64,000 nt of DNA, taken from assembly GCF_024494595.1 (NCBI RefSeq), contig NZ_JANHDI010000006.1:186001-250000 (forward strand). The letters are read 5' to 3'. Source of the stretch: Halobellus rarus. GTDB lineage: Archaea; Halobacteriota; Halobacteria; Halobacteriales; Haloferacaceae. A program made the translations under genes and the position numbers. The notes beneath the pieces were generated by a model. The model was not told the origin of the DNA. It was given only the letters and a program-made list of their open reading frames with translations, and did not search any database. This document shows positions 51,908 to 63,186 of this stretch, one piece after another. Positions within the stretch are counted from its first letter, which is position 1, and the number at the start of each line of letters is the position of its first letter.

Positions 51908-54001
51908 TTATTTTTCCGGAGGCGAACGCGGGAACGAGCAGAGGTCTGCTCGACCCGTCGCGACGAGCGTGTTTACTTTGTCGAGTGAAGTCGTCGCTAC
52001 GGTGGCGAGGGTGGCGATCCCAGTTTCGTTTCGGATGTCGTCGCTGAAATCACTCGGTCCCTTTTGGTCGACCTCGCGTCCGCTCGTCGAGACGTCGACG
52101 GGTGCGACCAAATCGCACCCTGCCCGGTCGAGTCGGCAGACGAGGTCGAAGGCGACCTGGAGTGAGACACCGTCGCCATCGCCGTCCGAAACCGGGAGCG
52201 AAACCCCGAGCAGTCGGTCGGCCGGCCACGCCTCAGCGACCGCTTCGACGACCGCTAGGGGGAATCGAACGCCCTCGGCGGGAGGGGCGTCCGACCGAGT
52301 GAGAGCGTCACCGAGCAGCGATTCCGGGCCTGCGTCGAGGAAGAGGCAGTCGAATCCGGCGTCCCTCGCGCGCCGTGCGGCCGCGGCGAAATCTTCGGTG
52401 ATGTCCTCTCGGTCACTCGCGGTCATCTCGTCGATCCGGAACGCGCCCGGTCGAGCGGGGAACTCGTCTGTGAGCCGCGGCGCCCACGTGGATTCCCGCT
52501 CCACCAGTTCACCGCGCCCGAAGAGTCGGGGCTCACGGGCCCCGTTCGCACCGGCGTGATGCAGTCGTGCGCCGGCAGTGACGTTATCGGGAATGGAAGC
52601 CAATTCCTCGCTCCAGGCTTCGACATGCTCGTCGTCGTACAGTCCCGGCGTCCCGGTGGTCGATCGCCCCTCGGGTGCCACGGCGAGCGGCTGGGTGAGT
52701 AGCAATCCTGGCTCTTCTGCGCCCGCCTCGACGAACGTCGATCGCTGCGCGTTCGACGGCGTCCCGTCTACCGCCGAAAACGAGGGTTCGAGCGGTCGGA
52801 CAAATCGGTTCGGGAGTTCGAGGTCCCCGATCCGCGCCGGCTGGTACGCGGGTTCGACGACCCCATCGCCCGAGGTCTCGGCCGCGAACCACTCGTCGAA
52901 GGCGCTGATGAATGAGGGATCTCGACGCTTCAGGCTCCCGTACGTGAGCCGCCCGCTGCGCGTGAGGTGGTGGACAGCGAACTGGCGGGGGGCCAGATCG
53001 TAGTAGCGCGCGACGTCCTCGAAGTGGATCCGACTCCGTTCGGCGGCCGACATCAGCGCCTTCACGAACGGCTTCCGGGAGGATTCGTACGTCGAGAGCG
53101 CACTCTCGACGTCGCTGTGCTCCTCGAACGCTTCCATCAGGCCGATCGCGTCCTCCATCGCGAGCGTGGTGCCCGATCCGATGGAGTAGTGAGCCGTGTG
53201 TGCAGCGTCACCGAGGAGCACCATATTCTCGTGATGCCAGTGTTCGTTCGTGACCGTCTCGAAGGTCCGCCACTGGTCCTGTTGGGAGAGGAGCGAGTGG
53301 CCGCCGAGGTGATCGGCGAACACGTCTTCGAGGTACCCGAGGTACTCCGACTCGCTGGCCTCGGCGAGTCCGGACCGTTCCCACGTTTCGGCGTCGCAGT
53401 CGACGATGAACGTGCTCGTCGGACTCGGATAGGTGTGGGCACACCAGAGACCGTCGTCGTTCTCGACGAAGATGTGCGTGAGCGCCTCGAAGTCCTGCTC
53501 CGTCCCGAACCACGAGAACCTCGCCTCTCCCTCTGCGACGTCCGTCCCGAACTCCTCGGCGAATGCGTCGCGGGCGCGGCTGTGAATCCCGTCGGCGAAG
53601 ATGCACAGATCAGATCCCTCCGCGAGCGCACCGGGATCCGTGATCTCTGTCTCGAACTGGAGGTCCACGCCGACGTCCCGACAGCGCTCCTGGAGCACGC
53701 GGAGGAGATCCGTCCGCATCATACTCGCGAACGTGTTGCCGCCGCAGCGGAAGCGCTCGCCGTCCGTCCGGATGTCGAACGGGTCCCAGCGCTCGAACGC
53801 CTCCGTGATCGCCTCGTGGGAGGGGCCGTCCGCCTCGGCGAGGTTCGAGATGGTTCGGTCCGGGAAGACGATGCCCCAGCCGTACGTCACGTCCGGCGGA
53901 TTTCGCTCGTACACGGTGACGTCCCAGTCGGGGTGTGCTCGCTTCAATAGCAGGCTCGCGTACAGTCCGCCTGGGCCGCCGCCGATGGTGTTGACTTTCA
54001 T
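51908..54001 (-). CDS. Flavin monooxygenase fused to Old-Yellow-Enzyme-like domain (2-aminobenzoyl-CoA monooxygenase/reductase or salicylyl-CoA 5-hydroxylase type)
   Basis: The 697-residue protein has two parts. Residues 1-380 are a group A flavin monooxygenase: NTIGGGPGGLYASLLLKRAH (FAD dinucleotide fold), then MVLLGDAAHTAHYSIGSGTT followed by LAMEDAIGLMEAFEE, a block shared by salicylyl-CoA 5-hydroxylase and 2-aminobenzoyl-CoA monooxygenase/reductase. Residues about 390-697 resemble the OYE TIM barrel (IGDLELPNRFVRPLEPSFSA, LHHAGANGARE, AAAARRARDAGFDCLFLDAG), but the HxHGYL region and the terminal FMN-phosphate loop are not recognisable and the domain is shorter than usual. The enzyme should hydroxylate an aryl-CoA; a reductase half-reaction is uncertain. 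It lies downstream of the symporter genes on the same strand, near an aryl-acid AMP ligase and IclR regulators. Salicylate or anthranilate as substrate is inferred. Confidence 0.82.
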   Translation of the reverse strand: MKVNTIGGGPGGLYASLLLKRAHPDWDVTVYERNPPDVTYGWGIVFPDRTISNLAEADGPSHEAITEAFERWDPFDIRTDGERFRCGGNTFASMMRTDLLRVLQERCRDVGVDLQFETEITDPGALAEGSDLCIFADGIHSRARDAFAEEFGTDVAEGEARFSWFGTEQDFEALTHIFVENDDGLWCAHTYPSPTSTFIVDCDAETWERSGLAEASESEYLGYLEDVFADHLGGHSLLSQQDQWRTFETVTNEHWHHENMVLLGDAAHTAHYSIGSGTTLAMEDAIGLMEAFEEHSDVESALSTYESSRKPFVKALMSAAERSRIHFEDVARYYDLAPRQFAVHHLTRSGRLTYGSLKRRDPSFISAFDEWFAAETSGDGVVEPAYQPARIGDLELPNRFVRPLEPSFSAVDGTPSNAQRSTFVEAGAEEPGLLLTQPLAVAPEGRSTTGTPGLYDDEHVEAWSEELASIPDNVTAGARLHHAGANGAREPRLFGRGELVERESTWAPRLTDEFPARPGAFRIDEMTASDREDITEDFAAAARRARDAGFDCLFLDAGPESLLGDALTRSDAPPAEGVRFPLAVVEAVAEAWPADRLLGVSLPVSDGDGDGVSLQVAFDLVCRLDRAGCDLVAPVDVSTSGREVDQKGPSDFSDDIRNETGIATLATVATTSLDKVNTLVATGRADLCSFPRSPPEK

Positions 54002-54127
54002 AACTCTGTCGTGATAGGTGCTCGGTGTGTAATTCGTCGCAGTCGATTGCGGTTCGGAAGTCGTCGATCGCTAGTCGTTCGAGCGCTGAACGATTCGTCC
54101 GGTCGTCGATCGAATCGCGCGGGGCTG

Positions 54128-55609
54128 TTACCAGACGTGTTCGAATAGCTCCTCGTACTGTTCCAACTTATCTTTGGGGGGTTTCCCCGTGGCGTAGGCG
54201 ACGACGATCATCAGGATTACTTGCGAGAGCAAGACCGGAACGAACGGCAGGAAGCCGAACGTGAGACTGTTCGGTAGGAGGCCGAGTTCGAACGCCCAGA
54301 TGCCGACGAATCCCCAGATTAGACCCGCGTACGCCGAGTACTTGTTGGACCGACGCCAGTAGAACGCCGAACAGATCGGGAAGAACATCAACCCGAATCC
54401 GGAGAAGGCGAACGTCGCTGTGTCGACGATACTGTCACGGGTGACCATCGCTCCGACGAAGGCCGCGACGAAGATGAGAATCAGGAACCCACGCGTGTAG
54501 TAGACCTCTCGGTACTCGCTGATGTTGAAGAACTCTTTGAGGACGTCCTCGGTGAAGAACGTGCTCAGCGTGAGCACCTGACCGTCGAGACTGGACATCA
54601 GCGCCGCGAGGATGCCCGCGAGTGCGAACCCGACGACCCACACCGGCAGGAGTTCGCCGACGAGCGTCGGGAGGATGAAGTCGGGATTCGCCAGGTCGGG
54701 GAACTGCGCGATGCCCCAAAAGCCGAGTAACACCGCCGGCGTCCACACGACGATGACGGCGATCGGGTAGAGCACGGCCGTCTGCTGAAGGTTCTTGACT
54801 GACTTCGCCGTCATATAACGGACGAAGAGGTGCGGGAACATAAACGCCCCAAAGGCGACGATGAGTCCCTGTGAGAACCAGGATCGGGGCTGGAACGGTG
54901 GGATACCGCCACGGTTCAGGAGGACCCCGTCGTTGATCTGTGCGACCGCCTGCGTCGCGCTGTCGAATCCCCCGATCCGGGTGGGAACCCAGAGGAACAT
55001 CGCGAGCAGAAACACGATGAACACCGCCCCCTGGAACGCGTTCGTCCAGCCGGTCCCGCGCATCCCCCCTTGGTACACGTACCCGCCGACGACGACGAGG
55101 ACGATCGCGGCTCCCAGCCAATACGGAACGAGTCCGTTCGTGAGCGCTTCGAAGACGATGCCACCGCCCTGCACGCCGACGAGGATGTAGGGGATCGTCC
55201 AGATGGTGAACATCACCATCGCTAGGACGCCGAGATACTCCGCGTCCCAGCGGTGGTTGATGATCTGTGCGGGCGTGATGTGACCGAACTCCTTGCCCAC
55301 CATCCAGATGCGGTACCCCACGGTCATCAGGAAGACCGGGAACAGGAACGCGAAGAGGACGACGAAGAACCCGAACGCGCCCGCACCGGCGCTGTAGGCC
55401 AGACCGGGCGCGCCGATCATCACCACCGCGGTCATATTCGTCGCGAAGAGGGCGGCCAGGAGAATGATCGTACTGAACGACCGATCGGCCATCAAGTAGT
55501 CCTCGCGGGACGTTCCAGTCGCCCGAGCGGCGAGGTGGCCCACCCCGAGTACGATGAGCAGGTAGACGGTCGTGATCGCGACGACGAGGAGGTTCGATCC
55601 CGACGCCAT
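54128..55609 (-). CDS. Sodium:solute symporter (SSS family)
   Basis: The 493-residue protein has about 13 membrane helices of the SSS/LeuT-like fold, beginning LLVVAITTVYLLIVLGVGHL. DYLMADRSFSTIILLAALFA is in the position of the family's DFFLAGR-type motif, and GFVGIWAFELGLLP lies near the C-terminus. It should couple sodium entry to uptake of an organic anion. It overlaps the DUF3311 gene (TGATG at 55607-55611), a common pairing in which the small protein is thought to be a partner subunit. The monooxygenase gene follows on the same strand 126 bases later, so an aromatic or other carboxylate substrate is inferred. Confidence 0.9.
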   Translation of the reverse strand: MASGSNLLVVAITTVYLLIVLGVGHLAARATGTSREDYLMADRSFSTIILLAALFATNMTAVVMIGAPGLAYSAGAGAFGFFVVLFAFLFPVFLMTVGYRIWMVGKEFGHITPAQIINHRWDAEYLGVLAMVMFTIWTIPYILVGVQGGGIVFEALTNGLVPYWLGAAIVLVVVGGYVYQGGMRGTGWTNAFQGAVFIVFLLAMFLWVPTRIGGFDSATQAVAQINDGVLLNRGGIPPFQPRSWFSQGLIVAFGAFMFPHLFVRYMTAKSVKNLQQTAVLYPIAVIVVWTPAVLLGFWGIAQFPDLANPDFILPTLVGELLPVWVVGFALAGILAALMSSLDGQVLTLSTFFTEDVLKEFFNISEYREVYYTRGFLILIFVAAFVGAMVTRDSIVDTATFAFSGFGLMFFPICSAFYWRRSNKYSAYAGLIWGFVGIWAFELGLLPNSLTFGFLPFVPVLLSQVILMIVVAYATGKPPKDKLEQYEELFEHVW

Positions 55610-55899
55610 CAGCGATCACTCCCCCCAGTGGCCGAGTCGCTCGCGCTGTCGCCGGCGGTCGGTTCGTGTTCCGACGGCGGTTCGGGAGCGACGAGGTACA
55701 TCACGGCCAGGATGGCAGTCCCGACTAGGAGGTACGCGACGTCGTACGCGATCTGAACCGGGATCCAGCCCAGAATCAGCGTCTGTGAACTCATCAGCCC
55801 GAAGAGTTCGCTCTGGTGGAGCACGACCATCGCCAGTACGGCCCCCAAAAGCGCGATCCGGACCGGCCGCTTCGGTGTCCAAAAGCTATCGCCTATCAT
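55609..55899 (-). CDS. DUF3311 small membrane protein, partner of SSS symporter
   Basis: The 96-residue protein has two membrane helices (VRIALLGAVLAMVVLHQSEL and YDVAYLLVGTAILAVMYLVA) separated by a loop with GWIPVQIAYD, and an acidic tail. DUF3311 proteins of this type are encoded directly before SSS symporters and probably form a two-component transporter. The frame opens with GTG at 55914, but the ATG at 55899 is preferred. The stop overlaps the symporter start. The palindrome at 55944-55957 lies just upstream and may control the operon. Confidence 0.8.
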   Translation of the reverse strand: MIGDSFWTPKRPVRIALLGAVLAMVVLHQSELFGLMSSQTLILGWIPVQIAYDVAYLLVGTAILAVMYLVAPEPPSEHEPTAGDSASDSATGGSDR

Positions 55900-55943
55900 G
55901 GTAACGGAAGCCACGTTTCGAATAGGTACACTTGAATCTATCT

Positions 55944-55957
55944 ATAACGTACGTTAT
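55944..55957. promoter_or_regulatory. Perfect palindrome ATAACGTACGTTAT, candidate IclR operator
   Basis: This 14-base perfect palindrome lies between the divergent DUF3311/symporter operon (starts 55899) and the aryl-acid ligase gene (starts 56066). A related near-palindrome with the same ACGTACGT core precedes the second IclR gene at 59014-59031. The position suits an operator that controls both directions. A TATA-like ACTATAATTTTATC lies at 56022-56035 for the ligase. Confidence 0.55.
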
Positions 55958-56065
55958 CGATCACGGGATCGCACCGCAAAGCAGGGAGACGAGCCGCGGG
56001 AGGATTCCGTGTGACGTCGACACTATAATTTTATCACGCTGGGTCCGATACGTGGTTCCGTATCA

Positions 56066-57775
56066 ATGACCGCAGGCGATCCTATGGAGCCGACATCGTT
56101 AGCCGGATACGTGCCGTTCGACGAGGAGCGACAGCGTCAGTACGTCGAAGAGGGGTACTGGCGAGAGACGACGTTCCACGAGGTGCTCGACGAACACGCC
56201 GAGGCGCACCCCGACCGGACGGCGCTCGTCGGTCCGAACCGAGAGCTCACCTACGGGGAACTCGCAGCGAGCACCCGACAGATCGCGTCCTATCTCGCCG
56301 GCGAACTGGGCTTGCGTCCAAACGAACGCGTCGTGTTTCAGCTGCCGAACTGCTCGGAGTTCGTGGAGACGTTTCTCGCCTGTTCCCGTATCGGCGTCGT
56401 CCCGGTGATGGTGCTTCCGCGCCACCGCGAGGCCGAGGCGAACCACGTCGTCGAGTTGACCGACGCCCGCGCGTACGTCGTCGACCACGATCGCTACCCG
56501 AACCGGTTCGACTTCGTCGGCCTCGCAGACGACGTCCGCGCCGCTCACGACTCCCTCGAACACGTCATCGCGGTCACCGACGACGGGGCCGCCGAGCTCG
56601 ACGAATGTGTGACTTTCGGGTCGATGCGAGACGAGCGGTGGGTGAACACGTACGGGGAGCAGGTGGTCGAAACTGACGTCGACCCGGCGAATCCGGGCGT
56701 GATGCTCCTCTCGGGGGGCACCACCGGGTTACCGAAGGCGATTCCACGGACCCACAACGACTACGTGTTCCAGTGGGAACGGATGGCCGAGGTGGCCGGA
56801 GTCGAGACGGACTGGATCGCGTTCCCGAGCGTCCCGATCGGCCACAACGCGTCGTTGAACTGCATCGTCGGTGCCGCGCTGTGGGAAGGCGCGACCGTTG
56901 CCGTCGAACCCGTCTTGAAACCGGAACATCTGATGGACTTCATCGAACGCGTCGACGGGAGTTACACGCTTCCGATGCCCACCCAGATCCTCGACATTCT
57001 TGATCACCCCGACGTCGACGAGTACGACTTGACCTCCCTCGAAGTGCTCGTCAGCGGCGGGCAGAAAGTCCCGCCCGCAGTGGTCGAACGGGCGGTCGAG
57101 CGCTGGGACGTCGGGTTCTGCAACATCTTCGGGATGGCGGAAGGGCCCCTGATTTGCTCCCGCCCGGAAGACGAGCTGGCGGTACAAGCCCACACGGTCG
57201 GCCGCCCAATCGCACCCGAGGCCGACGAGGTCCGTATCGTGGGTCCCGACCGAGAAGAGAACCTCGACACCGGAGAGGCGGGAGAACTCGCCGTTCGCGG
57301 ACCGGGGTACTTCACCGGATACTTCCGTAACGACGAGGAGAACGCGGAGAACTTCTCGGTGGACGGCTGGTTCTTCACCGAGGACGTCCTCGCGCGTCGC
57401 CCGGACGGGAACCTCGAAGTGTACGGCCGAATGAAGGATACGATCATCCGCGGAGGCGAGAACATCTACGCACCTGGTGTCGAGGACGAACTCATCGAAC
57501 ACCCGAAGATCGCAAACGTCGCTGTCGTCGCCATTCCAGACGATCGACTCGGAGAACGACCCGCGGCCGTCGTCGAGTTAGCTGAGGGGGCCGAGGACGT
57601 TTCGGTCGATGAGTTGTCGTCGTTTCTCGACGAACGGGGTATCGCCGTATTCAAGCGACCGGAACGACTCGCCGTGCTCCCGTCGCTCCCCCGGACTGAA
57701 GTCGGGAAAATCGAAAAGAAAGCCCTCGAGGACCGCATCGGCGATCTGTTCGAGGCGTCCAACGACGATCAGTAA
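56066..57775 (+). CDS. Aryl-acid AMP ligase (DhbE/EntE-like; salicyl- or aminobenzoyl-type)
   Basis: The 569-residue protein is an ANL-family adenylating enzyme. Motif A3 is VMLLSGGTTGLPKAIPRTHN, almost the wording of 2,3-dihydroxybenzoate-AMP ligases. Further blocks are IGHNASL near 260, where DhbE has HNYPLSS at the aryl pocket, then NIFGMAEGPLICSRPEDELA, GYFRNDEENAENFSVDGWFF and KDTIIRGGENIYAPGVED with the C-terminal hinge. It ends LPRTEVGKIEKKAL with the catalytic Lys. The His-Asn pair of the DhbE pocket is kept, while the following residues differ, so the acceptor is probably a related benzoate such as salicylate, anthranilate or benzoate. It activates the acid, probably to the CoA thioester, for the monooxygenase nearby. 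It is divergent from the transporter operon across the palindrome region. Confidence 0.85.
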   Translation: MTAGDPMEPTSLAGYVPFDEERQRQYVEEGYWRETTFHEVLDEHAEAHPDRTALVGPNRELTYGELAASTRQIASYLAGELGLRPNERVVFQLPNCSEFVETFLACSRIGVVPVMVLPRHREAEANHVVELTDARAYVVDHDRYPNRFDFVGLADDVRAAHDSLEHVIAVTDDGAAELDECVTFGSMRDERWVNTYGEQVVETDVDPANPGVMLLSGGTTGLPKAIPRTHNDYVFQWERMAEVAGVETDWIAFPSVPIGHNASLNCIVGAALWEGATVAVEPVLKPEHLMDFIERVDGSYTLPMPTQILDILDHPDVDEYDLTSLEVLVSGGQKVPPAVVERAVERWDVGFCNIFGMAEGPLICSRPEDELAVQAHTVGRPIAPEADEVRIVGPDREENLDTGEAGELAVRGPGYFTGYFRNDEENAENFSVDGWFFTEDVLARRPDGNLEVYGRMKDTIIRGGENIYAPGVEDELIEHPKIANVAVVAIPDDRLGERPAAVVELAEGAEDVSVDELSSFLDERGIAVFKRPERLAVLPSLPRTEVGKIEKKALEDRIGDLFEASNDDQ

Positions 57776-58213
57776 GCTCGCGACGTTTCCACTGTCGCAT
57801 TCCGGTTCCATTCGGTAGCGTCCGTCACCGATTCTCAGTTAACCCGTTTGTCGTGCGATCACGGAGGTCAAAGACTCCCAGGCGACACCACTACTCCGTC
57901 GACCAGCGGTCACGCGTTTCCCCAGGCAATAACGTGTAAGTCGGTATCAATCCACAGTGTGCAACAACGCGGTAGACTGGTGTTCGGAATCTCTGAGGTC
58001 GAACTAACCTGCTTTCCGAATTCTTACACCTCGATATTTATAAATTATAGATACTTGGCCGAATATATCCAATAGCGGCTCCGACAGCGGACAGAGCTTG
58101 AATTCCTTTTGACGGAATGCGGTGGGGAATGAGCGTAAACGATGATGAAGAACCCATCGTTCGTTGCACGAGGCGGAACAAATTTGTGGGAGACGACCGT
58201 ACGAAAAGGTAGA
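57776..58213. other. Intergenic region before the first IclR gene
   Basis: No gene is seen. CGATATTTATAAATTATAG at 58032-58050 is a strong TATA-like element for the IclR gene, though it lies about 165 bases before its preferred start; a leader or an earlier start is possible. Confidence 0.45.
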
Positions 58214-58978
58214 ATGCGAGAGCCAACCGGGGACACGATCAAGTCGGACGAAACTCTTCTCGAGATACTGGAAGCGCTGCACAGCCTCGACGAATCCACG
58301 CTCACGGCGATCGCAGACGAGGTCGACGTCTCGAAGAGCACTGTCCATCGCCACCTGGAGACGCTGCGCGCGCGCAGATTCGTCTCGAAGGGAGACGAGG
58401 AGTACCGGCTCGGATTAGAATTCCTCCGATTCGGTGGGGCTGCGCGGGAGCGCTATCCGTTTCACCGGCAGTCGAAATCGATCGTCCAGCAGGTGGCAGA
58501 TCAAACCGGCGAGTTCGTCGGATTCCTCGTCGAAGAACAAGGCGTCGGGACCTTCATATACTGCGAGATGGGAACGGAGGGTGTTCCATCGGAGGCGAAG
58601 GTCGGGCAGAACCTGTTGCTTCACCAATCCGCGTCGGGAAAGGCGATTCTCGCACACCTCCCCGCCGAACGGAGGTCGAGGATCCTCGATCAGTACGGGC
58701 TCCCGCCACGCACGGACGAGACGTTGACCGATCGAGCGACGTTGCTGGACGACTTGGACGAGATCCGAGAACGTGGCTACGCCTTCGCCCACGAGGAGTA
58801 CACCGACGGGTTGCGGGCCGTCGCAGCCCCCGCCTTCGATGCCGACGGAACCGTTATCGGAAGTCTGGTCGTCGCCGGTCCGATCCACCGAATGCGAGGC
58901 GAACGCTTCGAGACCGATCTCCCCGAACTCGTGACAGGAGCCGTCAAGGAGTTTCAACTCACTATCTCGTACGCCTGA
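58214..58978 (+). CDS. IclR-family transcriptional regulator
   Basis: The 254-residue protein has an N-terminal winged helix (about 10-75: SDETLLEILEALHSLDESTL, AIADEVDVSKSTVHRHLETL, ARRFVSKGDEEYRLGLEFLR) and a C-terminal IclR effector domain (about 90-250: GVGTFIYCEMGTEGVPSEAK, LLLHQSASGKAILAHLPAER, RERGYAFAHEEYTDGLRAVA, GTVIGSLVVAGPIHRMRGER). Family members respond to aromatic or small organic acids. The frame opens with an ATG at 58142, but the domain starts after MREPTGDTIKSDE, so 58214 is preferred. It lies beside the ligase and transporter genes and probably regulates them. Confidence 0.88.
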   Translation: MREPTGDTIKSDETLLEILEALHSLDESTLTAIADEVDVSKSTVHRHLETLRARRFVSKGDEEYRLGLEFLRFGGAARERYPFHRQSKSIVQQVADQTGEFVGFLVEEQGVGTFIYCEMGTEGVPSEAKVGQNLLLHQSASGKAILAHLPAERRSRILDQYGLPPRTDETLTDRATLLDDLDEIRERGYAFAHEEYTDGLRAVAAPAFDADGTVIGSLVVAGPIHRMRGERFETDLPELVTGAVKEFQLTISYA

Positions 58979-59434
58979 CTCGATCGGCCGACCGAGCCCG
59001 AAACGAACGCGGTAACATACGTACGTTTGTTATGTACATAGTTGCATCGAGAACGCGAGTCCAGTTCGAGATAATCGAACTATTTGTCGAACCTTGGAAC
59101 GTCACCGTTTAGACAATATCGTCTCGAATACGTGATCTAGAGCAGGTATCAATCGAGATCCTGTATCAGTTTCCGTTATTTAACCAAATAGTTTGTGAAT
59201 TCCGAAGTATACGTCCAAATGTTGTCTCGGGAAACCGCGACCGTATCAGTGAACGGGATCTGACAGAATGCCGTGAAGCGGCCTCAATGCAGTAGCACGC
59301 CCTAGAGAGCGGTACGGCGGTGACTGCAAAACCGTGCTGGAGTTCCCCCCGGCTACGACCGATCTTTCAAGGCCCGAACTTCAAAGTTCGGATATGCGAA
59401 ATTTTTATATTCGCGTGTGAGCGTGTTGGTACCA
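58979..59434. other. Intergenic region before second IclR gene
   Basis: No gene is seen in this 456-base stretch. It contains the near-palindrome AACATACGTACGTTTGTT at 59014-59031, an AT-rich part around 59175-59215, and a TATA-like GAAATTTTTATATTCG at 59398-59413, about 25-35 bases before the start at 59435. Confidence 0.45.
59014..59031. promoter_or_regulatory. Near-palindrome with ACGTACGT core, candidate operator
   Basis: AACATACGTACGTTTGTT matches its reverse complement in 16 of 18 positions and shares the ACGTACGT core with the perfect palindrome at 55944-55957. It lies between the two IclR genes. Binding by one of them is inferred. Confidence 0.45.
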
Positions 59435-60229
59435 ATGACCGAGAACGAATCGATCGTGAAGACGACGCAAACGTCGCTGGAAATGCTCTCGACGATCCGT
59501 GAAATCGGCGGCGCACGGACGAACGAGATCGTCGAAGCACACGACGTCGCCAAGAGCACGGCTCACAAGCACCTCACGACGCTCGAACGGGCAGGATACC
59601 TGCGGAAGGTCGGCGAGCGATACTACATCGGTTACAAGTTCCTGAACCTCGGCGAGTACGCCCGCGAGCAGTGGTCCTGGTTCTCGGCCGTCAAAGCGGC
59701 CGTCGAGGAACTGGCCGAGCGGACCGAAGAGGAGTGCGACTTCGTCGTCGACGACCACGGTCGGGTCATCACGGTCGTCGAGTCGTATCACAAGTGGGCG
59801 AAGTACGGGAGTGACGACGGTACGAAGCGATATCGGGCGAACATCGGTACCTACTACCCGATGCACGCGACCGGATCCGGCCTCGCGATCCTCGCGTCCT
59901 ATCCGCGGGACCGAGTCGAAGCGATCGTCGACGACACGGGGCTTCCCGCAGTCACGGAGCAGACAATCACGTCGCGTGCGGAACTGTTCGAGGAACTGGA
60001 TCGGGTCGACGAGCGGGGATACGCCATCGGAGATCGGTACTACACGGATGGGCTCCGAAGCGTCGGAAAGGTGGTAACCGGAGCCGACGGAACCGCGGTG
60101 GGTGCGCTCAGCGTCTCGGGGCCGACATACCGGATCGACGGATCGGTGCTCGACACAGAGATCCCGCGGGCGCTGGAGGACGTGGCCGACTCGCTGGAGT
60201 CCGAACTCGCGGACGCGTCCCGGACGTAG
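59435..60229 (+). CDS. IclR-family transcriptional regulator
   Basis: The 264-residue protein has the same plan as its neighbour: winged helix (TTQTSLEMLSTIREIGGART, EIVEAHDVAKSTAHKHLTTL, GYLRKVGERYYIGYKFLNLG) and IclR effector domain (ECDFVVDDHGRVITVVESYH, YYPMHATGSGLAILASYPRD, ERGYAIGDRYYTDGLRSVGK, GTAVGALSVSGPTYRIDGSV). A TATA-like box lies 25-35 bases upstream of the ATG at 59435. It could control the ligase/transporter genes or the alcohol/aldehyde dehydrogenase pair downstream. The two IclR proteins are only moderately alike, so they probably read different ligands. Confidence 0.88.
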   Translation: MTENESIVKTTQTSLEMLSTIREIGGARTNEIVEAHDVAKSTAHKHLTTLERAGYLRKVGERYYIGYKFLNLGEYAREQWSWFSAVKAAVEELAERTEEECDFVVDDHGRVITVVESYHKWAKYGSDDGTKRYRANIGTYYPMHATGSGLAILASYPRDRVEAIVDDTGLPAVTEQTITSRAELFEELDRVDERGYAIGDRYYTDGLRSVGKVVTGADGTAVGALSVSGPTYRIDGSVLDTEIPRALEDVADSLESELADASRT

Positions 60230-60284: not shown

Positions 60285-61484
60285 TCAGTACGCGTCGCGG
60301 GCGACTTCGAGCAAGTCCTCGGCGTCGGCGTCGCGGGGGTTGTCGTGGATCTCGATCGTCTCAAGTGACTTCTCGGCGATCTCGGAGAGATCGTCCTCGT
60401 CGACGTCGAGTTCGCTCAAGCTCGAGGGAAGGTCGACCTCGTCGATCAGGGCCTCGACCGCCTCGACCGCCTCGTGTGCGGCTTCGACGTCGGACAGTCC
60501 GTCGGTGTCGAGCCCCATCGCCTCGGCGACCTCCGCGTAGCGCGCGGGGTACTCCTTGAGGTTGTACCGCATCACCGGCGGCGTGAACACCGCGATTGCC
60601 TCGCCGTGGGGGATCTCGGGATACATCCCGCCAGTCACCTCGGCGAGGGAGTGAATCGCGCCGAACCCGGCGAAGTTCTCACAGAAGCCAGCCATATGCG
60701 ACCCGTACAGCATCTGCTCGCGGGCCTCCATATCGCCCGTCTCGTAGGCGTCGGGGAGGTACTCCGGGACGAGCCCCATCACGTGTTTCGTGTACGGCTT
60801 GACGAGTTCGGGCGCCCCGGCGGCGACGTGGTTCTCCAGGGCGTGGGAGAACGCGTCGAACCCGGTCGCAGCGGTCTGTCGCGGCGGGAGCGACGCAGTC
60901 AGTTCGGGATCCACCAGTGAGACCTCGGCGCCGAGGTACGGCCCATCGGGGTACAGCGGGGGTTGACCGATCGCCATCTTGAATTCCCTATCGGGCGCGG
61001 TGATCACGGCCCAGTAGTCCACCTCGCTCCCGGTCCCGGACGTCGTCGGGACCGTGACGAGCGGGTGCGGGTGGTTCTCGATACTGCCCGCGGTGACATC
61101 CTCCGGGACGTTCACCTCGTACTCAGAGAGCTCCCCCGAGTTGGTCTTCAGAAGCGTCGCGCACTTCGCGGTGTCGATGACGCTCCCGCCGCCCACCGCG
61201 ACGACCACGTCAAAGTCACCGGCGTTCAGCGTCTCCAGGGCGTCGTGGACCATCGCCGTCGTCGGGTTGGGCTCGATCTCGTCGTAGACCTCGTACTCGA
61301 TTCCCTCGGCTTCGAGCGAGGACTCGACGCCGTCGAGGATGCCGGCCGTCCTGATATCCTGGTCGGTGACGACCAGCGCGCTCTCCCACCCCTTCGCGTC
61401 GATCACTTCGCCGGTCCGCTCGCTCTTCCCGTTCCCGAACTCGACCCAGATCGGGAACGAGAAGGTGTACTCGCCGAGGCTCAT
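60285..61484 (-). CDS. Iron-containing alcohol dehydrogenase
   Basis: The 399-residue protein is a group III (iron) alcohol dehydrogenase: FPIWVEFGNGKSERTGEVID at the start, VVVAVGGGSVIDTAKCATLL with the nucleotide-binding GGGS near residue 98, LVTVPTTSGTGSEVDYWAVI, GFDAFSHALENHVAAGAPEL with metal ligands, and HSLAEVTGGMYPEIPHGEAI with further His ligands. It oxidises or reduces a small alcohol with NAD(P) in the cytosol. It is divergent from the aldehyde dehydrogenase, with an operator-like inverted repeat between them, so the two probably form an alcohol-to-acid pathway. The substrate is unknown. Confidence 0.92.
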   Translation of the reverse strand: MSLGEYTFSFPIWVEFGNGKSERTGEVIDAKGWESALVVTDQDIRTAGILDGVESSLEAEGIEYEVYDEIEPNPTTAMVHDALETLNAGDFDVVVAVGGGSVIDTAKCATLLKTNSGELSEYEVNVPEDVTAGSIENHPHPLVTVPTTSGTGSEVDYWAVITAPDREFKMAIGQPPLYPDGPYLGAEVSLVDPELTASLPPRQTAATGFDAFSHALENHVAAGAPELVKPYTKHVMGLVPEYLPDAYETGDMEAREQMLYGSHMAGFCENFAGFGAIHSLAEVTGGMYPEIPHGEAIAVFTPPVMRYNLKEYPARYAEVAEAMGLDTDGLSDVEAAHEAVEAVEALIDEVDLPSSLSELDVDEDDLSEIAEKSLETIEIHDNPRDADAEDLLEVARDAY

Positions 61485-61592
61485 CGTCTCTTCCTCCGCG
61501 CGGACGGGATGGCTGTGCTACTCGTCGGACAGTCGCGGCTGTTGTGTCGCATCCACACGAAATTCGGGAAATACAACATATAAAGATGATGG

Positions 61593-61613
61593 AACAAGCA
61601 ACAATCGCTTGTT
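61593..61613. promoter_or_regulatory. Inverted repeat AACAAGC-N7-GCTTGTT, candidate operator
   Basis: A perfect seven-base inverted repeat with a seven-base spacer lies in the 187-base region between the divergent alcohol and aldehyde dehydrogenase genes. A TATA-like CATATAAAG is found at 61577-61585. The layout suits a site for one regulator acting on both genes. Confidence 0.5.
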
Positions 61614-61671
61614 TCATCCGGACGGACCGCATCGTGAGAAGTTTTTTGAACCGGTGAGAGAGACAGGCTGT

Positions 61672-63186
61672 ATGGACAGTTCGCGACCAGGCGGTAGTAC
61701 GATCGCCGAGCGGCACCGCTCGAAACACCGGGAGGCAACGGCCGACGTCGAGTTCGGCGCGTGGATCGACGGCGAGCGTCGCACCGGGGGACCGAAACGG
61801 GGGATCGAGGATCCGGTGATCGGTGAATCGATCGTCGACGTCCCGCAGTCCGACGCCGGCGACGTCGACGACGCGGTCGGCGCGGCGTGGGACACCTTCG
61901 GGGGCGGGTGGGAGGACGCCACCGTCCGCGACCGGTCAGAGCGCCTCTTCGAGTGGGCCGACGTCCTGGCGGATCACGTCGAGGAACTCACGTTGTTGGA
62001 GTGTCTGGACTGCGGCAAGCCGATCTCGCAGGCCCGCGGCGAGGTCGAGGGCGCGATCGATACACTGGAGTTCTACGCGTCCGCAATTCGGGGACAACGC
62101 GGCAGCGAGGTACCGGCAGGGGAGGACCTCCACCTCTACACGAAACGGGAGCCGTACGGCGTCGTCGGACAGATCGTCCCCTGGAACTACCCCCTGTGGG
62201 CGGCCGCCTGGAAACTCGGTCCGGCGCTCGCCGCGGGCAACGCGTGCGTCCTGAAGCCCGCCAGCGACACGCCGCTGTCGACGGTCCGCGCCGCGCAGCT
62301 CTCGGAGGGCATCTTCCCCGACGGCGTGCTCAACGTCGTGCCGGGATCGGGCAGCGAGGTCGGGCAGGCGATCGCGGAACACGAAGAGATCCGTAAGGTC
62401 TCGTTCACCGGCAGCACCGGCGTCGGCAGCGGGGTGATGCGCGCGGCCGCCGACCGGGTCGCGCCGGTGACGCTGGAACTCGGCGGCAAGTCCCCGTTCA
62501 TCGTCTTCCCCGACGCGGACCTCGACAAAGTCGTCCAAGCCGTCGCCGACGGTATCTTCTACAGCACCGGCGAGATCTGTGACGCCTTCTCCCGGGCGTT
62601 AGTCCACGAGTCGATCGCCGACGAGTTCACCGAGCGGTTCGTCCAGGCGGCCGAATCCTACGTATTGGGGGACCCACTCGACGAGGAGACGACGATGGGG
62701 CCGCTGACCTCGAAGCGCCAGCTCGAGACCGTAACCGACTACATCGAGACGGGCAAGGAAGCGGCGGATCTGCTCTGCGGCGGCGGGCGGCCGGACGACC
62801 CGGAGTTGGCCGACGGCTACTACGTCGAACCGACCGTCTTCGACGACGTGACGAACGATATGACCGTCGGCTGCGAGGAGATCTTCGGGCCGGTCCAGAC
62901 GATCCAGACGTTCGAGAGCTACGACGAGGCGATCGAACTCGCGAACGACACGCAGTACGGGCTCGCCTCCGGCATCGGGACCGAGAGCACGTCGCTCGTA
63001 CATCAGACTGCCGACGACCTGGACGCCGGCCTCGTGTACGTCAACGAGTACGGGCCGATTATGCCAGACGCGCCCTACGGCGGGTTCAAGCGGTCGGGCT
63101 TCGGGAAGGACCTTGGGCTGGAGGCCCTCGATCACTACCAGCGTCAGAAGAGCGTATACGTGAACCTCGACGAGCCCGAACTCTAA
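61672..63186 (+). CDS. NAD(P)-dependent aldehyde dehydrogenase
   Basis: The 504-residue protein has the ALDH motifs: VVGQIVPWNYPLWAAAWKLG, LAAGNACVLKPASDTPLS, VSFTGSTGVGSGVMRAAADR, VTLELGGKSPFIVFPDADLD with the catalytic Glu, the active-site Cys in YSTGEICDAFSRALV, and EEIFGPVQTIQTFESYDEAI. It resembles betaine-aldehyde and related dehydrogenases. The open frame continues upstream to 61339 inside the neighbour; the ATG at 61672 begins the family sequence. It should convert an aldehyde made by the divergent alcohol dehydrogenase to an acid. Usually a Gln stands where Glu precedes Ile-Cys; this looks like a natural variant. Confidence 0.92.
   Translation: MDSSRPGGSTIAERHRSKHREATADVEFGAWIDGERRTGGPKRGIEDPVIGESIVDVPQSDAGDVDDAVGAAWDTFGGGWEDATVRDRSERLFEWADVLADHVEELTLLECLDCGKPISQARGEVEGAIDTLEFYASAIRGQRGSEVPAGEDLHLYTKREPYGVVGQIVPWNYPLWAAAWKLGPALAAGNACVLKPASDTPLSTVRAAQLSEGIFPDGVLNVVPGSGSEVGQAIAEHEEIRKVSFTGSTGVGSGVMRAAADRVAPVTLELGGKSPFIVFPDADLDKVVQAVADGIFYSTGEICDAFSRALVHESIADEFTERFVQAAESYVLGDPLDEETTMGPLTSKRQLETVTDYIETGKEAADLLCGGGRPDDPELADGYYVEPTVFDDVTNDMTVGCEEIFGPVQTIQTFESYDEAIELANDTQYGLASGIGTESTSLVHQTADDLDAGLVYVNEYGPIMPDAPYGGFKRSGFGKDLGLEALDHYQRQKSVYVNLDEPEL

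Follow-up and report, generated by a model that had tools for sequence, protein, structure and literature searches.

A conserved haloarchaeal gene module for probable salicylate degradation through salicylyl-CoA, with a probably vestigial reductase half in its flavoprotein

Introduction

The sdg genes of Streptomyces WA46 are described in PMC4600096 as specifying a salicylate route that proceeds by AMP-ligase activation, a coenzyme A (CoA) ester and 5-hydroxylation to gentisate. A two-domain flavoprotein, the 2-aminobenzoyl-CoA monooxygenase/reductase of Azoarcus evansii and of pAL1 in Arthrobacter sp. Rue61a (PMC3534580), represents a second route, in which anthraniloyl-CoA is hydroxylated and reduced. 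Salicylate degradation has been reported in haloarchaea (Haloferax sp., Bonfa 2011, as listed in PMC4005966); a literature search combining haloarchaea with salicylate/gentisate, anthraniloyl-CoA or kynureninase, with most subscription journals outside its coverage, returned no paper naming the genes for salicylate degradation.

We analyzed a 64,000-nucleotide stretch of the Halobellus rarus genome (contig NZ_JANHDI010000006.1, positions 186,001 to 250,000; hereafter, the window), in which five genes, encoding a flavin monooxygenase, a symporter, a small membrane protein, a ligase and an IclR-family regulator, form a module spanning window positions 51908–58978. We consider it likely that this module serves the import of salicylate, its activation to the CoA ester and 5-hydroxylation by an enzyme with a vestigial reductase half, the enzymes for cleaving gentisate being encoded at another place in the genome. 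Salicylyl-CoA routes are known, but one in haloarchaea that combines these genes with a degenerate reductase half is new: neither a haloarchaeal module of this type nor the reductase loss was found described in the literature searched, which left out most subscription journals. The features of the module are as follows.

51908–54001, minus strand: fusion of a VioD-like flavin adenine dinucleotide (FAD) monooxygenase (residues 1–351) and a degenerate Old Yellow Enzyme (OYE) barrel (residues 381–697), candidate salicylyl-CoA 5-hydroxylase (697 amino acids; Pfam FAD_binding_3 and Oxidored_FMN; NF006101)
54128–55609, minus strand: sodium:solute symporter, probable aryl-acid importer (Pfam SSF, 2e-43)
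55609–55914, minus strand: small membrane protein, probable symporter subunit, its gene overlapping the symporter gene (conserved in 8/8 modules)
55915–56065, no strand: divergent promoter region between the transport and monooxygenase genes and the ligase gene (partly conserved in four modules with the same layout)
56066–57775, plus strand: DhbE/SdgA-type aryl-acid AMP ligase with a salicylate-type pocket (HNASLNC, FGMAEGPLIC; best PDB match 5wm2, 2e-99)
58142–58978, plus strand: IclR-family regulator of the module (Pfam IclR_C and HTH_IclR)

The proposed route has AMP-ligase activation, the CoA ester, 5-hydroxylation and gentisate in common with that of Streptomyces WA46, but the haloarchaeal module pairs a salicylate-type DhbE ligase with a symporter and a small membrane protein, was not found to include a separate CoA synthetase and has a decayed OYE half, and the gentisate genes usually lie elsewhere in the genome. 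The flavoprotein shares the two-domain architecture of the 2-aminobenzoyl-CoA enzymes (36% identity to the pAL1 protein), yet it is devoid of the reductase residues, has a C-terminus about 70 residues shorter and lacks RidA or other anthranilate partners. The ligase resembles DhbE, MbtA and PchD in fold, P-loop and aryl pocket, with the Cys and Leu of the salicylate-specific members, and differs from them in that the module genomes hold no carrier protein, CoA being the presumed acceptor.

Results and discussion

A module conserved in eight haloarchaeal genomes

Searching 392 genomes of the order with the flavoprotein returned homologues in 25, which fall by gene neighbourhood into sets of eight and 17. 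The set of eight comprises H. rarus and seven others under four genus codes, with flavoproteins 53–72% identical, and a comparison of gene order of the kind proposed in an earlier note, made from the letters of the window, finds the ligase, small membrane protein, symporter and IclR genes beside the flavoprotein gene in all eight genomes of this clade. Identities to the window proteins across the seven other modules are 67–90% for the symporter, 60–80% for the ligase and 48–83% for the first IclR protein. The grouping, recurring in all eight close homologues, is not due to chance. In a tree built from just the monooxygenase half, the 25 haloarchaeal sequences form one clade (support 96), inside which the eight module members form another (support 100).

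The earlier note had placed here a DhbE-like ligase, an enzyme resembling salicylyl-CoA hydroxylase or 2-aminobenzoyl-CoA monooxygenase, and a sodium symporter, an assignment confirmed by Pfam, NCBIfam and PDB matches, and its suggestion that they take up, activate and hydroxylate one aromatic acid is supported as the best reading. Its island, 51908–57775, contains the other named genes but ends too early to include the module's IclR gene. Two IclR genes are present, as it said, but the conservation of the module extends to the first alone; the second (59417–60229, plus strand), downstream of the first, was rejected as a module gene, its best matches in other loci being only 32–38% identical. 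The DUF3311 label given to the symporter's small partner is weak because the match, at 14.5 bits (E 0.036), falls below the cut-off of 30, and we dropped the label while keeping the protein.

The other 17 homologue genomes (loci L045–L061) carry monooxygenases of the same family, 44–49% identical to that of the window, in different company. An LLM-class oxidoreductase gene lies near the monooxygenase gene in 16 of the 17 loci, with a varying set of acyl-CoA dehydrogenase, MaoC, SDR, enoyl-CoA hydratase, RidA and benzoate-CoA-type ligase genes and, in some loci, genes for indoleamine dioxygenase, a kynureninase-domain protein or tryptophan synthase beta. By their partner genes, these clusters, of which L047 (7889–10974) is an example, read as a tryptophan/anthranilate route. 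Near the module, no RidA, acyl-CoA dehydrogenase or LLM gene was found in any of the eight loci, and the LLM protein was found in none of the eight module genomes, as against 9/9 of the other homologue genomes tested.

On a plasmid of Halobellus ramosii (NZ_CP101826; locus L192, 8989–11965), a half-length copy of the window ligase (85% identity) is followed by an IS5 transposase gene and an IclR gene, which is likely a relic of the module.

Loss of conserved residues in the OYE half of the flavoprotein

The best NCBIfam match of the flavoprotein is NF006101, 'bifunctional salicylyl-CoA 5-hydroxylase/oxidoreductase', at 574 bits, below the curated cut-off of 1078, with protein residues 1–692 aligned to positions 1–718 of the 768-position profile. 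In a structure model (predicted local distance difference test score, 87), fold comparison identified residues 1–351 as VioD-like (Z 42.8) and residues from about 373 to 697 as an OYE barrel (Z 39.8); Pfam and the model thus confirm an FAD monooxygenase fused to an OYE barrel, the NF006101 architecture. The FAD motifs GGGPGG, ADGI and LGDAAH are kept. We considered a frameshift or a truncated 3' end and rejected it: the other downstream frames hold no recognisable continuation, and haloarchaeal homologues stop at about the same place.

At the three catalytic OYE positions, formed by the HxxH pair and a Tyr, the window protein has D, P and S; a loop is deleted, and the Q and R positions are changed. 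In all four core members of the clade, the HxxH pair, the Tyr after it and a loop of 8–9 residues are gone. None of the 25 haloarchaeal members keeps the Arg of the VRxSATDW motif seen in bacteria, and most also differ at the Q and GR positions, the window protein ending close to the bacterial GR motif, whereas these sites are nearly invariant in 93 bacterial members (the best 80 of 544 relatives plus 13 plasmid regions hand-picked from 178 and 95 records, and so not a random set). We take the lost HxxH, Tyr, Arg, Q and GR sites to be flavin mononucleotide (FMN) or substrate contacts in OYEs; in line with this role, they are conserved in the solved OYEs 5ocs and 5nux, and the title of PDB entry 8x0j lists Q102A/Y169F/R215A/R308A. 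The ratio of divergence in the OYE half to that in the FAD half is 2.07 for the core four (6 pairs) and 1.63 for the remaining four module members, compared with 0.80 in intact bacteria (3570 pairs), where the largest value in the bands listed is 1.33. Judged by these residues, the OYE half of the window enzyme is probably vestigial and its reductase function lost, so that the likeness to a fused monooxygenase/reductase drawn in the earlier note holds for the two-domain architecture but probably not for the second activity. The monooxygenases of L045–L061 have also lost the bacterial FMN-contact residues but largely keep HxxH and YGGSLENR; reduction there may now fall to the neighbouring LLM enzyme.

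The ligase pocket and its acceptor

We aligned the ligase to 5wm2, 5kei, 1md9, 6e8o and 7tyb. It has Cys at the position of DhbE Ser240 and PchD Cys250, as do the salicylate-AMP ligase 5wm2, 5kei (which we take to be MbtA) and PchD, while DhbE and 6e8o have Ser; at the position of Val337 in DhbE and Ile347 in PchD it has Leu, where DhbE has Val. Both residues are present in all eight module ligases. The PchD study assigns salicylate specificity to these two positions (PMC9470617), and the BasE study gives a KM 10-fold lower for salicylate than for 2,3-dihydroxybenzoate (DHB) in EntE S240C (PMC12005286). The window ligase accordingly looks salicylate-specific by its pocket residues; against TIGR02275, (2,3-dihydroxybenzoyl)adenylate synthase, it scores 359 bits, below the cut-off of 723.55.

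The nearest solved ligases are siderophore or nonribosomal-peptide-type adenylation enzymes, which would suit a ligase for siderophore synthesis that lies beside the monooxygenase incidentally. We regard this as very improbable, given the constant company of the ligase in 8/8 modules and a search for the PP-binding (carrier-protein) domain that was positive in 11/14 controls and in 0/8 module genomes; because this domain is absent from all eight, CoA is the likely acceptor. A different 2-hydroxy aryl acid, either a substituted salicylate or DHB, could be processed by the same chemistry, since the family annotation leaves the substrate unfixed and aryl ligases can be promiscuous, BasE being comparably active on salicylate and DHB (PMC12005286). 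The Cys and Leu pocket nevertheless favours salicylate over DHB, and a gentisate dioxygenase fits unsubstituted 5-hydroxylation, which makes another substrate of this kind improbable.

Gentisate genes elsewhere in the genomes

A gentisate 1,2-dioxygenase homologue was found in 8/8 module genomes, compared with 3/17 of the other homologue genomes and 63/392 overall (Fisher 3e-7 for the module genomes against all genomes, with kinship ignored); the clade dioxygenases match with E of about 1e-59 to 1e-65. In Natrinema salinisoli, the record annotation gives a run of IclR, AMP-binding ligase, small protein, symporter, FAD monooxygenase, small (hypothetical) protein, cupin and fumarylacetoacetate (FAA) hydrolase genes, and the cupin is the gentisate dioxygenase homologue. 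In H. rarus, the dioxygenase, an FAA hydrolase and a 4HBT_2 thioesterase are encoded within 7.5 kb on a separate contig that also holds a two-gene ADP-forming acyl-CoA synthetase. The earlier note had located the ring-cleavage and thioesterase genes outside the window and pointed to the rest of the genome for them; none was seen in the 46–64 kb part of the window that was read, and the separate contig supplies candidates for both. The H. rarus 4HBT_2 protein is matched in 5/8 of the clade's dioxygenase loci, one match being partial. A hotdog-fold gentisyl-CoA thioesterase is known from Bacillus halodurans (PMC516016).

State of the OYE site in bacterial relatives

A dioxygenase lies within about 10 kb in 7/93 bacterial members, a lower bound because many of the bacterial loci end within 8 kb; distant dioxygenases were looked for in 20 of the 80 genomes. 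In all seven dioxygenase-linked members, which belong to four lineages, the first His, the Tyr or both are altered, versus 1/86 of the others. One of the seven, L136, has its dioxygenase about 8 kb away, and counting it among the unlinked members instead gives 6/6 versus 2/87; Fisher tests on such counts ignore kinship. On the tree, the dioxygenase-linked rows need five changes, and among five independent pairs four or five point in the same direction under every pairing and none in the opposite one, where p = 0.0625 is the best that five can give. A blind scan for alignment columns that depart from the anthranilate-linked consensus in four or more of five dioxygenase-linked lineages found five (the haloarchaea counting as one lineage when either the core four or the remaining four departed from it, with the core four supplying the His and Tyr columns). 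All five columns are in the OYE half, they include the first His and the Tyr, and no FAD-half column marks the dioxygenase-linked members; random sets of five rows gave means of 0.17 FAD and 0.10 OYE columns.

These comparisons bear on the alternative that the module degrades anthranilate via anthraniloyl-CoA, hydroxylated and reduced as in Azoarcus and Arthrobacter. The best-supported members of the family act on 2-aminobenzoyl-CoA (PMC3534580), RidA or acyl-CoA dehydrogenase genes stand beside most bacterial relatives, and the FAD half, with no column peculiar to dioxygenase-linked members, may accept both substrates. But the His and Tyr are intact in 50/50 RidA-linked bacterial members and lost here, the anthranilate partners are missing from the module loci and LLM from the module genomes altogether, and the ligase pocket is of the salicylate type, so that we judge an anthranilate route unlikely. 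Of the two substrates that the earlier note left side by side, salicylate is thus favoured by the predicted pocket, the dioxygenase homologue in 8/8 clade genomes and the loss of the OYE site, and anthranilate is disfavoured by the lack of RidA, acyl-CoA dehydrogenase and LLM genes nearby.

The only altered member among the 86 without a linked dioxygenase is a Chloroflexi metagenome-assembled genome (RFIA01000148; locus L100, 1728–4777). An LLM partner adjoins it, 60% identical to the haloarchaeal type, and its OYE Arg and GR positions are lost; it is the sole bacterial member found with a haloarchaeal-type LLM partner among the 93. A comparison of LLM presence with loss of the OYE Arg yields two independent pairs only, too few to be informative.

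Many bacterial proteins that bear the name 'bifunctional salicylyl-CoA 5-hydroxylase/oxidoreductase' are encoded beside RidA, acyl-CoA dehydrogenase or tryptophan-degradation genes, and in such loci proteins of this name are probably anthraniloyl-CoA monooxygenase/reductases. Salicylyl-CoA (gentisate) enzymes and anthraniloyl-CoA monooxygenase/reductases, filed under the same database name, appear to be distinguishable by whether the OYE active site is intact; if this is true, the OYE state would correct many annotations, and the role of the fused reductase would become a question for point mutations. More speculatively, and with a likelihood somewhat below even, we suggest that the OYE half acts as a switch deciding which of two fates a hydroxylated aryl-CoA meets. 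The reductase site would have been knocked out repeatedly in gentisate routes (haloarchaea, Streptomyces, another actinomycete, Flavobacterium and Caballeronia), leaving the barrel as a non-catalytic scaffold, and in the sister haloarchaea and one Chloroflexi genome, whose FMN contacts are also lost, the reduction would have passed to a separate neighbouring LLM-class, possibly F420-dependent, enzyme.

A proposed route from salicylate to gentisate

From the gene content and its conservation, the ligase pocket, the loss of the OYE site and the presence of gentisate genes, we infer the substrate, each reaction, CoA transfer, thioester release and regulation as follows. Salicylate would enter through the sodium symporter and its small membrane partner, and the DhbE-type ligase would convert it to salicylyl-AMP and then to salicylyl-CoA. 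The FAD half of the fusion enzyme would hydroxylate salicylyl-CoA at position 5 to give gentisyl-CoA, a product predicted to stay aromatic, unlike that of the reducing anthraniloyl-CoA route, because the OYE half has no reductase active site. A gentisate route needs a surviving aromatic product, and a dead reductase site is therefore expected; our preferred interpretation of the enzyme is a salicylyl-CoA 5-hydroxylase whose OYE half persists as a non-catalytic scaffold. CoA could be released from gentisyl-CoA by a 4HBT-type thioesterase or by the ADP-forming acyl-CoA synthetase working in reverse, and gentisate would be cleaved by the gentisate 1,2-dioxygenase and FAA-family hydrolase of the separate genomic island. 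The IclR protein encoded at 58142 would control the module, which supplies testable genes for haloarchaeal salicylate degradation.

Several observations count against this route. Carrier proteins are the usual targets of DhbE-type ligases, and transfer to CoA is here our conjecture; in Streptomyces WA46, CoA transfer is thought to be due to a second enzyme (PMC4600096). At about 200 bits the dioxygenase stays short of the cut-off set for TIGR02272 (442), as do its counterparts in all 63 haloarchaeal genomes matched, and in H. rarus it lies on another contig than the module. It also occurs in 5/6 genomes of the same genus that have no monooxygenase and must therefore serve other routes too. In bacteria, the dioxygenase-linked loci use benzoate-CoA-ligase-like ligases where one was found, the pair test reaches a p of only 0.0625 from five independent pairs, and L118, the sister of L130, has a genomic dioxygenase but an intact OYE site.

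Other observations

Eight extra plasmid regions within the bacterial set contain relatives of which 7/8 have His and Tyr intact and no dioxygenase; 5/8 of these regions are unannotated. In Flavobacteriaceae, 5/199 genomes gave matches, three of them to the OYE part only, with one new full-length relative besides the query genome, which was left outside the comparisons above. In a Caballeronia sp. SBC1 plasmid (locus L188, 7448–12452) and in L095, thioesterase, monooxygenase, cupin dioxygenase and FAA hydrolase genes lie in a row, and indolepyruvate oxidoreductase-like genes adjoin both rows and also occur near a Tsukamurella homologue. Beside the module in the window, at 60285–63186, are genes for an Fe-type alcohol dehydrogenase and an aldehyde dehydrogenase, which we considered and rejected as module genes, the aldehyde dehydrogenase sharing only 37% identity with the ones found beside two other modules.

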